Assembly (NCBI GenBank): GCA_028712895.1
Contig: JAQTPL010000003.1
Location: 1 to 64,000 of the forward strand
DNA from: a bacterium
GTDB lineage: Bacteria; CAYTYR01; UBA6262
Reading direction: 5' to 3'
Length of the DNA: 64,000 nucleotides
Every line of letters begins with the position of its first letter. Positions within the stretch are counted from its first letter, which is position 1. This document shows positions 27,270 through 32,694 of this stretch, piece after piece. The translations under genes and the position numbers were made by a program. A model generated the notes under the pieces. It did not search any database. It worked only from the letters and a program-made list of their open reading frames with translations, and was not told the origin of the DNA.

Positions 27270-28769
27270 TTACAACCTCCTTCCGTAATTTTTTAATTCT
27301 TTTTTCATAGTGACCCGCATTTTGGGCGCGGTTTGCCGTAATCTCCCGATGCTTCTTTGTTCTTTAACGAGGGGATTGAATCCGCTAAAACCAAAAACCC
27401 GCCAGATCGTGCTGGAGAGAGCTGTTACCCATTGCCCATTCTTGCCGCGGGGAATTTCCCAGCCAAAGAAAAACGTATTGATTACTTCACGGTCGCCGGG
27501 CTGGATGCTGGTATACGGCAATACTCCTTTGGGCATGCCGGCCAAGTCATTCATCTTATTCATTTCTGCCAAGTAGCGGAAAGCTTTCTCCTCGTATTCT
27601 TCCGCTTGCTCAGGAGCCTGGTTACGCCGGCAAAAATCCGCCATCACCCGGTAAGTGATGACCATTTGTCCCGTCCCTTCCCACCAGATCAGCCGGGACC
27701 GTTTTGGATCTTTGCCCTTTTCATCAGTAAAATCAAAACCAGAGACAGCGATATTGTTAATGTCGTGCTGTACGAAAAAGTTGTCTTCGGCAGATTTAAT
27801 CATTTTGACCGGGTCTAAGCCCCACTTGACCAATTCCTCCGGCCCGATGGCGGCAATGCCCCAGGTAACGGTATCCAACGCTTTGGTAGAATCAACACCA
27901 GACTCGTTATAACCGCAATGAAAGATCTGATTTTGGCGGCTATAAACAATCTCCAGCAGCCATTTCTTGATGCAGGATTTTTCGTACCTGATCTTTTTCA
28001 AGCTAAATTTGCGTTGCTTAAACAACTGCTGGTATTGGCCCGGATCTTGCTGGTATATCTGTTCTAAAATAGTAAGCACGGCATAGTTATCGATCACATT
28101 TTCCGTAGAATAGACTTTACTCCAGTTAGCCCCCCAGCCGCTGCCCATACTAACTGCTCCGCGGCTCCCGTCAGGGAATTTAAAATGCGGCAAGTCATAG
28201 GCCCAGCGGGCAATATCAAGCGCAAATTTAAGGTATTTATGAGTATGATTGATCTGGTCATATTGCAGCGCCGCCAGGGCCACCCACATATTCGGCCCGA
28301 CATGTATCCTGTCGCCGTCAATACCGGCTAAAAGAGTACCTTCCCCCCAATCATCAAAACCAGTGACGCGGTAGGAATTAAGTAGTCCGTTATAGCCGTT
28401 TTTGACCGTATAAAAATTGTTCTTCAAGATCTGCAGGATCTGGTCAGCCTTACTTTTTTGATTATTGATGGTGTACATGATCACGGCCAAAGCCAGATCA
28501 TAAGTAAAAGCCTGCTGGTCCAGCAGGCCTTCGTTTTGCTGATAATATCTCTGGGTAGCGTCATCAAAATAGCAACCGGATGTACCACGAAAACTTTCCA
28601 CTAATCCGGTATCCGGATTACTTTGCTGATCTAAATGCAGCAGTACCGACTTGCTTAGATCAAGCAATGATTGCTGATATATATTGGCTTCTTGCGAATA
28701 AACCTGAGATAAGGACGTAGCCAGATAAAGCGATATTATAAAGATAATGAAATATATTTTGTTTACCAT
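27270..28769 (-). CDS. Secreted protein, putative (alpha/alpha)6-barrel glycosidase-like
   Basis: Signal peptide; DQQAFTYDLALAVIMY, RVTGFDDWGEGTLLAGI, GAVSMGSGWGANWSK, WEGTGQMVITYRVMADFC resemble six-hairpin glycosidase repeats. Confidence 0.5.
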   Translation of the reverse strand: MVNKIYFIIFIISLYLATSLSQVYSQEANIYQQSLLDLSKSVLLHLDQQSNPDTGLVESFRGTSGCYFDDATQRYYQQNEGLLDQQAFTYDLALAVIMYTINNQKSKADQILQILKNNFYTVKNGYNGLLNSYRVTGFDDWGEGTLLAGIDGDRIHVGPNMWVALAALQYDQINHTHKYLKFALDIARWAYDLPHFKFPDGSRGAVSMGSGWGANWSKVYSTENVIDNYAVLTILEQIYQQDPGQYQQLFKQRKFSLKKIRYEKSCIKKWLLEIVYSRQNQIFHCGYNESGVDSTKALDTVTWGIAAIGPEELVKWGLDPVKMIKSAEDNFFVQHDINNIAVSGFDFTDEKGKDPKRSRLIWWEGTGQMVITYRVMADFCRRNQAPEQAEEYEEKAFRYLAEMNKMNDLAGMPKGVLPYTSIQPGDREVINTFFFGWEIPRGKNGQWVTALSSTIWRVFGFSGFNPLVKEQRSIGRLRQTAPKMRVTMKKELKNYGRRL

Positions 28770-29698
28770 TTATATCCTACTGATATGCGGTGGGTATCGC
28801 CGAGGATCCCGTACGGCATCCAGGCATAATGTAAATTAAAACCAGCTATCTGGAAACCCAGCCCGGCAGTAATGCCGTTAAAATTGTCAATATCGGAAAT
28901 GTTCGCCGTATCGTAACCGGCACGGACAGCCAGGTTTTGATTGATCCAATATTCCAGCCCTACATTCTCGCTGATCTTGCTGTCTTCCTTGGGTTGGTAT
29001 TTCACATCCGCAGACAAGGTCAGTGTGTCGGCTACAAAAATATAGGCAGCTCCGGCCTTGATGGTTAAAGGCAAGGGATCTGTTTCCTGCACAAATTTTA
29101 CCCCAGGACCCAGGTTCTGCACATTAACACCGGTAGAGAAGCGCGGCCAGAATTTATATATGACGCCAAGATCCATAGCATAACCATTAGCCTTTTCCTG
29201 CTCTATTTTCTGCTGAAATACTTTCAAGTTGCTGCCCCAGGACATTTTTGACCCAAGAGTCCTGGCATACGTCATTAAAAGCAGGCTCTGGGTACTGGAA
29301 AAAGTCCCGATCGCGCTGCCAGCCAGGTCAGTTTGGTCAATTGAGCCTGAATCAAGATACGCCAGGGCCAGACCTAAGGTACTGCCGTTCGGCAGCGGGT
29401 GAATATAGCCGACATAGCCATAGCTAATGCCTTCCAGATAATCGATATAACTGGCTATCGCCTCTTTGTGCTTGGCCCAGGCAATACCGGCAGCATTATA
29501 CTGCGGCCCGTTAGCATCATCAGCGATCGCAGTGAAAGCATTGCCCATAGCGACCGGACGGGCTCCGGCTCCGAGCCGCAAGAACTGGGCTCCGGTCGTG
29601 CCGGTTCCACTGGCTCCGGTATAGGAAGGCATCGTGGTAAGGAAAGCCAGCGTAATTTCAATTGCTCTTATCAGTATGCTGATTCTTTTTCTGGTCAT
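28763..29698 (-). CDS. PorV/PorQ-family outer-membrane beta-barrel protein
   Basis: GTTGAQFLRLGAGARPVAMGNAFTAIADDANGPQYNAAGIAW. Confidence 0.88.
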   Translation of the reverse strand: MTRKRISILIRAIEITLAFLTTMPSYTGASGTGTTGAQFLRLGAGARPVAMGNAFTAIADDANGPQYNAAGIAWAKHKEAIASYIDYLEGISYGYVGYIHPLPNGSTLGLALAYLDSGSIDQTDLAGSAIGTFSSTQSLLLMTYARTLGSKMSWGSNLKVFQQKIEQEKANGYAMDLGVIYKFWPRFSTGVNVQNLGPGVKFVQETDPLPLTIKAGAAYIFVADTLTLSADVKYQPKEDSKISENVGLEYWINQNLAVRAGYDTANISDIDNFNGITAGLGFQIAGFNLHYAWMPYGILGDTHRISVGYKW

Positions 29699-29710: not shown

Positions 29711-32215
29711 TTATTTAATGATCGCTAATTTGCCGGTCTTATGCTTACTGTTATTGCTTTCTACTAAGAAGATATACAGTCCACTGGCTACTTTCTGGCC
29801 AGTTTCATTGGTGGCATCCCAGCTAAGCTCCCCCCGAGCCAGGTCATCGCGCAAAGTGCGCACGAGTTCGCCGGTCAGGGTGTATATTTTAACTATTGAT
29901 TCGTTCATGATGTTGGTAAAGGTGATCTGGGTATGACCTAAACCGCTATTGGGTTTGTAAGGATTAGGATAGACTTTCACTTCATCAAGGTTTTCCAGTG
30001 CGCCAGCTGGCGAGAAAAGACGATAGACCCGGCCAGCGGCTAATTCACTGCCGGCTATTTCTATGGCTACCGTATGATTGTTGCGAAGGACCAATTGGCT
30101 GCCCGGGACTTCTTCCCAGTTGGCAGATCTTTCATTTAGTTGATAGATCCGCAGATTTGATTCCTGCCAACCAGATATAGCGCTGGGATAGCTGAGATGA
30201 ATAGTGAGCGGTCCGCTGATCACATCGCTGGTCTTGAACTCAACGATACTGGCATCAAGTTCTTCTTCAGAAGCCAGTTTCATAGCCTGGTATAATTTGG
30301 TATCAGCAGCGCTGACCAGGGAAGTTTTTCCCTGTTGCGGAATGGTGATATTCAATATTTTGTTATTATTTTCAGGATTCTGCGGGATCACAGCCCTGGT
30401 TTGCCAATCCTGGTCCCAGGAGATGGCATCAGCACTGGTATTGCTTCTTATAATATTGTGCACGGGATATACTGGCTTGCTGGCAGAGAGCAAATTGGTA
30501 TTTGAAGTTGATGTTACATAAGCTTTATTATCTGAATCCAGCGTGGCAACTACAGCTATATAATAGCCAGTACCTTCCTGTAAGCCGGAAATAGTGCAGT
30601 TCTTAGCCTGTGGATCGTTCACCGGTGAATCTGTTGCAAACTGCACTCCATCGTCTGAAATACCGGCAAATGGCGCCGTCGCATAATATATGGAAAAACC
30701 TTCGACCGTCATGACCGAAGAAGCAGTCCAGGTAACATCTAAACTGTCACCATCGTCGCTGGGAGTATCAATAACATTAAAATCAGTGACCCTAACCTGC
30801 TCTCCCTTGCCCAGGACCATGGCTTGGGCGGCATTTATCCGGCCGTAACCGTAATAATCATCCTTGCCGCTGGAACCAAGATCTTCACAAGAAGCAATGA
30901 TTTTTGCTTCAATTTCCAGATTGGTCAGGCTGCGGTCACTGGCTATAATTAAGGCAGCCAAACCGGAAACAAATGGGGTAGCCATGCTGGTCCCGCTGGC
31001 ACGATAATACTCGCCGCCAACAATATTAACCTCCGTACGGCACATATCCGTTCCCTTCGCCTTAAGGGAAAGGATGTCAACGCCAGGGGCGGTAACATCC
31101 ACATTAGGACCGTAATTTGAAAAAGAGGCTCGGACATCGTTGGCATTGCAAGCAGCGACTGTGATCGCTTGACTGTAGTTGCCGGGGAAGAACTTTTCAG
31201 CATTGGTGTTGTTGTTTCCGGCGGCTGCCACTATGACACAATTATGATCGTAAGCATACATCAGGGCATCCTGGATCAAAAGGGAAGTACCATACCCGCC
31301 CCAACTTAAATTAATGACTTTGGCTCCGTTGTCAACCGCGTACTTGATGGCCTGGGCTAATTGGTCAGAAGCACCGGTACCGCTGTCAGTCAGGCCTTTA
31401 ATGACCATGATCTTGGCCTGCCAGCACACTCCGGTAATACCCTGCCCATTGTTCCCGACTGCGGCAATGATCCCGCTGAGATGCGTACCATGACCATGCG
31501 TATCCATAGGATCATTGTTATTATCAATAAAATCCCAACCCATAGTGTCATCGATATAACCATTGTTATCGTCATCGATCCCGTTGCCGGGGATTTCACC
31601 AGGATTAGACCAGATATTGGCACTCAGGTCAGGATGTGTAGAGTCAACGCCGGTATCTATTACCGCTACAATAGCATCACTATTACCGCGGGAGATGTTC
31701 CAGGCTCTTTCTGATTGGATATTCTTTAATCCCCACTGGTCATCATACTGCTGGCCCCAGGTGCCGGAAGAACTATAATACGGATCATTAGGAACAGCGG
31801 CTATACTATATATATAAATCGGTTCTGCATATTCCACCAGGCTGCTGCCAGTGCAGGCGTCCAAGGTGTCCTGCAGATCCTGGCCATCTTTAACGGAAAC
31901 AGTGAACCACCGTGAAAGTCCTTCGTCCAGAGGGGAATTCTGGGGACTCAATTGCTTTTGGCTTGAACCGCTACTTTGGGGGGCGGCGGAGAAAACCGGT
32001 TGCATTTCCTTGAGCATCGTTGCGCTTATGGAATCAATACTTGAAGAAACGTTTTGCCGGTGGCTGGAACCACTAGCTCTTAACTTGACCAGGATCTCCC
32101 CTGCCTTCCGCGGTGGTTCATTCACTGCTTGATCAGCGGCTATAGAGAACGTCGGGCTGTTTACCAGTCCCATCAGTATCGCTATTCCTATCAGTCCTCT
32201 CTTCAAGCCGCTCAT
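29711..32215 (-). CDS. Secreted S8 subtilisin-like protease with Fn3-like region and C-terminal FlgD/T9SS-CTD-like domain
   Basis: VIAVIDTGVDSTHPDLS (D), HGHGTHLSGIIA (H), SGTSMATPFVSGLAALI (S); C-term EVKVYPNPYKPNSG..VKIYTLTGELVRTL..WDATNETGQKVASGLYIFLVE. Confidence 0.94.
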   Translation of the reverse strand: MSGLKRGLIGIAILMGLVNSPTFSIAADQAVNEPPRKAGEILVKLRASGSSHRQNVSSSIDSISATMLKEMQPVFSAAPQSSGSSQKQLSPQNSPLDEGLSRWFTVSVKDGQDLQDTLDACTGSSLVEYAEPIYIYSIAAVPNDPYYSSSGTWGQQYDDQWGLKNIQSERAWNISRGNSDAIVAVIDTGVDSTHPDLSANIWSNPGEIPGNGIDDDNNGYIDDTMGWDFIDNNNDPMDTHGHGTHLSGIIAAVGNNGQGITGVCWQAKIMVIKGLTDSGTGASDQLAQAIKYAVDNGAKVINLSWGGYGTSLLIQDALMYAYDHNCVIVAAAGNNNTNAEKFFPGNYSQAITVAACNANDVRASFSNYGPNVDVTAPGVDILSLKAKGTDMCRTEVNIVGGEYYRASGTSMATPFVSGLAALIIASDRSLTNLEIEAKIIASCEDLGSSGKDDYYGYGRINAAQAMVLGKGEQVRVTDFNVIDTPSDDGDSLDVTWTASSVMTVEGFSIYYATAPFAGISDDGVQFATDSPVNDPQAKNCTISGLQEGTGYYIAVVATLDSDNKAYVTSTSNTNLLSASKPVYPVHNIIRSNTSADAISWDQDWQTRAVIPQNPENNNKILNITIPQQGKTSLVSAADTKLYQAMKLASEEELDASIVEFKTSDVISGPLTIHLSYPSAISGWQESNLRIYQLNERSANWEEVPGSQLVLRNNHTVAIEIAGSELAAGRVYRLFSPAGALENLDEVKVYPNPYKPNSGLGHTQITFTNIMNESIVKIYTLTGELVRTLRDDLARGELSWDATNETGQKVASGLYIFLVESNNSKHKTGKLAIIK

Positions 32216-32240: not shown

Positions 32241-32282
32241 AAAAACCGAGCTTTCCTGGATCTTCGATCCGAAAGCCCGGCT
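32241..32282 (-). terminator. Intrinsic terminator of riboswitch 2
   Basis: AGCCGGGCTTTCGGATCGAAGATCCAGGAAAGCTCGGTTTTT. Confidence 0.85.
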
Positions 32283-32294
32283 GGCTTGAACAGA

Positions 32295-32402
32295 GGTATA
32301 GCATACGATCTTCGGTAGCAACGGCTGGCTTAGAATACTGTCTTTAGCCCCTTTGGCTTTGCGTCCCCGCCTTTCGGCGGGTTTGCCTTTATCGGATCCT
32401 AT
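32295..32402 (-). ncRNA. c-di-GMP-I (GEMM-I) riboswitch, copy 2
   Basis: GGATCCGATAAAGGCAAACCCGCCGAAAGGCGGGGACGCAAAGCCAAAGGGGCTAAAG...AAGCCAGCCGTTGCTACCGAAGATCG; GNRA-capped stem and GACGCAAAGCC core. Confidence 0.93.
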
Positions 32403-32446
32403 TTAATTGTATGCTCGGTTTTCCTCCCTTTCTCTTAAGCTTGCCC

Positions 32447-32492
32447 TAAAAAACTAATGCCGACCTGTCTCTATAATATCCGACAGCTCGGC
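32447..32492 (-). terminator. Intrinsic terminator of riboswitch 1
   Basis: GCCGAGCTGTCGGATATTATAGAGACAGGTCGGCATTAGTTTTTT. Confidence 0.82.
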
Positions 32493-32512
32493 TGGCATTG
32501 ATAAGTCGTGTC

Positions 32513-32617
32513 CATATTTCGGCGGCATGCGGCTGGCTTAAATAAGCTTGGCTTATTCTTAGCCCCTTTGGCTTTGCGTCCCCTGATTTCTCAGGGTTTG
32601 CGTTTTCGGATATGTGC
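32513..32617 (-). ncRNA. c-di-GMP-I (GEMM-I) riboswitch, copy 1
   Basis: CATATCCGAAAACGCAAACCCTGAGAAATCAGGGGACGCAAAGCCAAAGGGGCTAAGAATAAGCCAAGCTTATTTAAGCCAGCCGCATGCCGCCGAAATATGG. Confidence 0.93.
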
Positions 32618-32666
32618 ATTAGTTTTGAAAGAACCGTAACAAACGTACTTCAACTACCCCACTATA

Positions 32667-32694
32667 AACTTAGCACGGATCAACAGTTTGTCAA
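32667..32694 (-). promoter_or_regulatory. Putative sigma70-type promoter upstream of the riboswitch leader
   Basis: Minus strand TTGACA - 16 nt - TAAGTT (alternative TATAGT overlapping). Confidence 0.55.

Follow-up and report, generated by a model that had tools for sequence, protein, structure and literature searches.

In one survey, tandems of a single riboswitch class were most often of c-di-GMP-I, with 347 doublets and 12 triplets (PMC9481103), and the doublet arrangement itself is known. The usual riboswitch mechanism is strand exchange through P1 (PMC10907184). In the numbering of Vc2, G20 lies in J1-2, C22 and A23 form the start of P2, A47-A49 lie in J2-3 and C92 lies in J3-1 (PMC3764141). 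Position 20 is the selectivity base, which is A in c-AMP-GMP switches (PMC9481103, PMC9262584). For Vc2, a loss of binding of up to 30,000-fold upon mutation of G20 has been reported (PMC4744006). In Cd1, changing G11 (equivalent to G20) to A or C had no large effect on binding, and the base was called a selectivity factor (PMC9262584).

We scanned the window (the whole stretch of 64,000 nucleotides analysed, from an uncultured bacterium) with Rfam and obtained exactly two matches, both on the minus strand and both inside a leader that a preliminary description had reported as tandem GEMM-I. The two minus-strand matches were those it expected from the covariance model. Against RF01051 (gathering threshold 35 bits) aptamer 1 scored 60.2 bits and aptamer 2 scored 72.2 bits. 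Aptamer 2 also exceeded the cut-off of RF03167, c-di-GMP-I-GGC (63.5 vs 59 bits), yet it gained more bits against RF01051; aptamer 1 was assigned to RF01051. The idea that the RF03167 match signals an altered ligand was dropped, and we found no source in the literature that explains the GGC label. A 22-mer common to both units, GACGCAAAGCCAAAGGGGCTAA, had 2 copies in the window and appeared in 0 of 100 shuffles of it. The same genome holds only one further GEMM-I copy, on contig C10. Below, G000 is this genome, G001, G002 and G003 are relatives with the tandem leader, and G004 is a more distant member of the same class. The features of the locus are as follows.

32689-32694, minus strand: -35 element TTGACA, invariant in four genomes
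32667-32675, minus strand: extended -10 element TGCTAAGTT, with TGCTA..T mostly conserved in four genomes
32640-32664, minus strand: conserved 5' leader stretch, within TATAGTGGGGTAGTTGAAGTACGTTTG, near-invariant in G000-G003
32606-32613, minus strand: P1 5' strand of unit 1, AUAUCCGA, common to the ligand-binding fold and the decoy helix
32521-32612, minus strand: aptamer 1, c-di-GMP-I (GEMM-I), RF01051, E 2.8e-9; its P1 3' strand extends to 32513
32602, minus strand: nucleotide 20 of aptamer 1 (Vc2 numbering from PMC3764141), C instead of G, C in 4/4 orthologues
32476-32498, minus strand: decoy 1, AUGCCAGCCGAGCUGUCGGAUAU, whose UCGGAUAU (32476-32483) complements the P1 5' strand over 8 bp
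32448-32492, minus strand: terminator 1, a conserved hairpin (32459-32492), then AUUAG, then U6 (32448-32453)
32392-32398, minus strand: P1 5' strand of unit 2, GAUCCGA
32310-32396, minus strand: aptamer 2, c-di-GMP-I / c-di-GMP-I-GGC, RF03167 E 1.2e-12, with the canonical G20 at 32387
32266-32287, minus strand: decoy 2, AAGCCAGCCGGGCUUUCGGAUC, which repeats AAGCCAGCCG of the aptamer 3' half and whose UCGGAUC (32266-32272) complements the P1 5' strand over 7 bp
32241-32280, minus strand: terminator 2, a strong hairpin (32246-32280, CCGGGCUUUC...GAAAGCUCGG-UUUUU, -22.6 kcal/mol) with U5 at 32241-32245
29711-32215, minus strand: secreted S8 (subtilisin-like) protease of 834 aa (PF00082, 212 bits) with FN3 and a T9SS-type-A-like C-terminal domain
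28763-29698, minus strand: PorV/PorQ-family outer-membrane protein (NF033709, 205 bits, cut-off 90; PF19572)
27270-28769, minus strand: probable third operon gene without a family match, which follows PorV in G003 too (63% identity)

The order given earlier (promoter, aptamer 1, hairpin 1, aptamer 2, hairpin 2, S8, PorV) was correct. A terminator had been claimed for each aptamer. This holds well for terminator 2; terminator 1 is a real, conserved hairpin, which we regard as weak and sub-standard because a gap of 5 nt (AUUAG) separates its stem from the U-run. The leader thus contains two complete units, each with its own expression platform, the first terminator being weaker than the second. 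These observations support the reading of the leader as tandem c-di-GMP-I riboswitches that would control the S8-PorV unit. The P2 stems, said to differ completely, differ in 3 of 6 pairs and have CCC in common. Within a genome the two P2 copies (window 32366-32381 and 32581-32596; L033, L034) look homogenised, being identical in G002 and both of GCAU type in G001, which suggests gene conversion between the units.

The promoter proposed earlier, TTGACA-16-TAAGTT, was upheld in part. Relatives keep TTGACA and an extended -10 TGCTA(A/T)GTT, less clearly in G003, and the hexamer TAAGTT itself matches the consensus at 3 of 6 positions. A consensus promoter and terminator scan detected neither this promoter nor the two terminators, since its loop and hexamer limits were too strict here. 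The near-invariant stretch at 32640-32664, 25 bases long, lies where transcription probably starts. We consider it unlikely that another promoter stands between the units, as the TACAAT-like stretch there is without conservation.

With an exact 22-base core pattern we found tandem relatives in three public MAGs that carry the NCBI label Elusimicrobia (UBA6262, fen_1175, NC_groundwater_1672). All five genomes of this phylum that were examined had c-di-GMP-I matches. UBA6262 is also the name of a small phylum-level group in GTDB. G000-G003 all have the tandem leader ahead of the S8 gene (89, 79 and 60% identity for S8). PorV follows S8 in G002 and G003; the contig of G001 ends inside S8. Alignment of the four leaders showed that both aptamers and both hairpins are kept. 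The unit had been described as beginning right after gspD and as controlled separately from the T2SS genes. Its position after gspD is found only in this genome, with no gspD match in the upstream stretch examined in three relatives. Since the upstream gene differs among relatives and the unit travels without gspD, the S8-PorV unit is not part of the T2SS genes; separate control is supported, and we rejected a T2SS linkage. In G004 an S8-PorV pair is preceded by one decoy-type switch alone, of the same design and with a decoy helix of only 5 bp. The single switch there suggests that duplication within the G000-G003 family gave rise to the doublet. On contig C21 of G004 (L041 2214-9131), three GEMM-I switches lie within 7 kb, and an S8 protease and two GH113 family proteins follow them; of these switches the first looks ON-type, and the second and third look OFF-type.

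In the published Vc2 numbering, the first G of GGCAAA is nucleotide 20. This motif is intact in aptamer 2 (G20, 32387), and aptamer 1 has CGCAAA in its place (C20, 32602). The statement that both aptamers keep the core is therefore wrong at a ligand-contacting base, which was overlooked because the motif used began at G21. In aptamer 2 we found all three pocket bases G20, A47 and C92 (GGCAAA, GACGCAAAGCC, CCGAAG). Aptamer 1 keeps A47 and C92 and has C20 instead of G20; its scaffold is that of GEMM-I, its pocket is a variant, and it should not be labelled a canonical c-di-GMP-I member. The A20 of c-AMP-GMP (GEMM-Ib) switches is present in neither. Among 79 surveyed aptamers, the four tandem leaders were the sole source of C20, in each case in aptamer 1. 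A strict core pattern run on 386 genomes gave 75 aptamers, 71 with G20 (from 40 genomes) and four with C20, all four being aptamer 1 of the tandem leaders. The C20 core was not found in viral contigs, and widening the survey through the phylum of G062 yielded one genome only. A sequencing error is a very unlikely source of C20, as four separate genomes share it. No precedent for a C20 aptamer beside a G20 sibling was found in the literature searched, the coverage of which was partial. In one other genome (G065, C3 and C36; L057, L058) we noticed triple tandem c-di-GMP-I arrays with a spacing of ~157 bases and A at position 20 in all copies, as in c-AMP-GMP switches.

Each terminator region contains a second copy of the aptamer's own 3' half (GCCAGCCG...), which ends in UCGGAU(AU or C). 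This decoy copy is exact over 8-12 nt in 6 of 8 units (shuffle p <= 0.04). UCGGAU(AU/C) pairs perfectly with the P1 5' strand in all eight units, which are not independent of one another (8 bp in unit 1, 7-9 bp in unit 2). The outer decoy pair is U-A in unit 1 (4/4) and G-C in unit 2 (4/4), amounting to one compensatory change. No other of the 79 surveyed aptamers had a decoy helix of at least 7 bp seated at the terminator. For the unit 2 decoy helix alone, the shuffle p was 0.035-0.065 in three genomes. We dropped the idea that decoy mimicry is unique to this lineage, as other genomes (e.g. G080, G076 and G004:C27) are likewise predicted to have terminator arms that pair with the 5' half.

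Folding of transcripts of increasing length gave the decoy helix a probability of ~1.0 in 8/8 units from its emergence, and it was lost when the terminator 3' arm appeared; in unit 2 of G003, the exception, the decoy helix won at full length too. With tertiary contacts, pseudoknots and ligand left out of the energies, the decoy fold came out 12-17 kcal/mol ahead at the decision point, and once the terminator was complete the terminator fold was equal or better by 0-10 kcal/mol. Computed folding thus gave mutually exclusive folds, aptamer plus terminator vs antiterminator, clearly in unit 2 and more weakly in unit 1. The decoy strand of unit 1 lies mostly in the terminator loop and not in the arm (arm pairing with the 5' half only 0.17), so termination would be blocked less directly there. 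In these models unit 2 looks a convincing, clean OFF case, and unit 1 has the weaker terminator.

The genome contains c-di-GMP synthase genes: twelve GGDEF matches were found, several with an intact GG(D/E)EF and the usual selectivity Asp. A DAC domain is also present, so c-di-AMP is probably made. The S8 protease scored 21.8 bits against TIGR04183 (T9SS type A sorting domain), just under the cut-off of 23; the S8 protein of G004 scored 33.7 bits. An SprA-like gene lies elsewhere in the genome, below its family cut-off. Together with the adjoining PorV/PorQ-family gene, these features make T9SS-like export plausible.

We propose, with a probability of roughly 60%, that the leader consists of tandem class-I c-di-GMP riboswitches, each a transcriptional OFF switch and the first of lower affinity, ahead of an S8 protease-PorV operon. 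The observed base of this explanation comprises both aptamers, conservation, the complementarity of the decoy, C20 and the diguanylate cyclase genes. In each unit, a single 5' half would be contested by two 3' halves, of which the first (...CCGAAG, with C92) would build the ligand-binding aptamer. The second, the decoy, 22-36 nt further downstream in the terminator hairpin and without the C92 context, would pair fully with the P1 5' strand through UCGGAU(AU/C). Without ligand, the decoy would oust the first 3' half, the terminator would be hindered and polymerase would read on (ON). With c-di-GMP bound, the aptamer would hold P1, the decoy would be left free and the terminator would form (OFF), so that c-di-GMP would repress the protease. 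Unit 2 would do so with a standard G20 pocket. Unit 1, with its lineage-fixed C20, most likely would have a lower affinity for c-di-GMP, so that repression by the pair would extend across a broader range. From the anatomy, in which the decoy fold opposes a bound aptamer that leaves the terminator free, we predict the OFF direction (the preliminary description had given none). Kinetic strand exchange, ligand binding in either unit and the lower affinity of unit 1 are inferred as well. We speculate that repression of a secreted protease by c-di-GMP would fit a sessile state that spares its matrix.

The preliminary description took the aptamers for two equivalent sensors in series that sharpen the response. 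As stated this is not supported, C20 being fixed in aptamer 1: unequal bases at position 20 imply unequal pockets, and a sharpened response need not follow. In a toy calculation with a first unit 100-fold weaker, the response curve was spread out and not steeper. Equivalent sensors with C20 as a tolerated neutral change would agree with the frequency of tandem c-di-GMP-I switches, with one natural triplet that is more digital (PMC9481103, PMC4759541) and with the Cd1 substitutions (PMC9262584), which would make C20 neutral. We consider this unlikely, given C20 in 4/4 copies of aptamer 1 against the 71 G20 aptamers of the strict-pattern survey, and given the binding loss in Vc2 (PMC4744006). 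A fixed C at the ligand-reading position suggests instead that the affinity or the ligand of aptamer 1 differs, and each unit may answer a different signal or a different dose. If the ligand differs, aptamer 1 would sense another cyclic dinucleotide or a related ligand and aptamer 2 would sense c-di-GMP, either of them shutting the operon (NOR). The role of position 20 in selectivity, with A20 in c-AMP-GMP switches (PMC9481103, PMC9262584), the DAC domain and the otherwise kept pocket of aptamer 1 (A47-A49, C92, C44, GNRA loop), which makes decay unlikely, would fit such a two-input gate. It is nevertheless quite improbable in our view: no SMODS nucleotidyltransferase was found in the genome, no GGDEF with Ser at the selectivity position occurred among the GGDEF matches read, and the unchanged C92 means that guanine is still expected in one site. 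We also know of no C20 ligand. The bolder form, in which aptamer 1 represents an unrecognised C20 subclass of GEMM-I with a new ligand, making the leader a natural NOR gate through which two ligands control an exported protease, is a long shot.

It is also conceivable, if doubtful, that unit 1 is a ligand-unresponsive, leaky constitutive attenuator and that regulation falls to unit 2. C20, the 5-nt gap of the weak terminator 1, the lower RF01051 score of aptamer 1 and an A.C mismatch in P2 of G003 unit 1 all point that way. A dead unit should drift, however, and the core of aptamer 1, its decoy and its hairpin are otherwise kept in four genomes. Tandem ON switches, in which c-di-GMP prevents termination, are highly improbable in our view, although the characterised Bc3-5 triplet is ON-type (PMC4759541) and 32 of 61 surveyed terminator-bearing switches look ON-type. 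ON-type members use the aptamer 3' strand as the terminator 5' arm, as the C10 switch and its orthologues do; the terminators here lie fully downstream of both aptamers, and a bound aptamer leaves them free. Judged by layout, the same genome apparently has GEMM-I switches of both polarities.

The C10 switch (L002 1502-1715, G000:C10; orthologues L036, L037, L039) lies ahead of a 390-aa protein with a signal-like hydrophobic start and without a family match. Between its terminator and the start codon stands a strongly conserved element, GCCACGAAAGUCACGGAUGUGCUUUUGGGGC, which matched no Rfam family. In a Bacillota MAG (L056 6117-6300) we observed two GEMM-I aptamers that adjoin directly, leaving no space for an intervening terminator; the locus also carries a TPP riboswitch.

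Compared with known systems, the locus shares its aptamer class and its complete units in series, each with a terminator, with the Bc3-5 triplet of Bacillus thuringiensis (PMC4759541) and other tandem c-di-GMP-I switches. The Bc3-5 units are ON, whereas OFF is predicted here and the first aptamer has C20. What appears to be new is that a C has become naturally fixed at the selectivity base of GEMM-I, with a canonical sibling in the same leader. The C20/G20 pair offers a built-in comparison for asking whether the units of a tandem may have different thresholds or ligands. The c-AMP-GMP (GEMM-Ib) switches, e.g. pilM and D. acetoxidans cluster 3 (PMC9262584, PMC9481103), likewise change position 20 within the c-di-GMP-I scaffold; theirs is A20 and not C20, and pilM is ON-type. 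The leader would also tie c-di-GMP to a secreted protease and a PorV-family partner in a poorly known lineage, through a concrete OFF mechanism in which the decoy imitates the aptamer's own 3' half. A close parallel to that mechanism is the Cd1 switch of Clostridioides difficile (PMC9262584), a transcriptional OFF switch with kinetic competition and a terminator fully downstream of the aptamer. The antiterminator of Cd1 captures the aptamer 3' strand, whereas the decoy of unit 2 would imitate the 3' half and capture the P1 5' strand.
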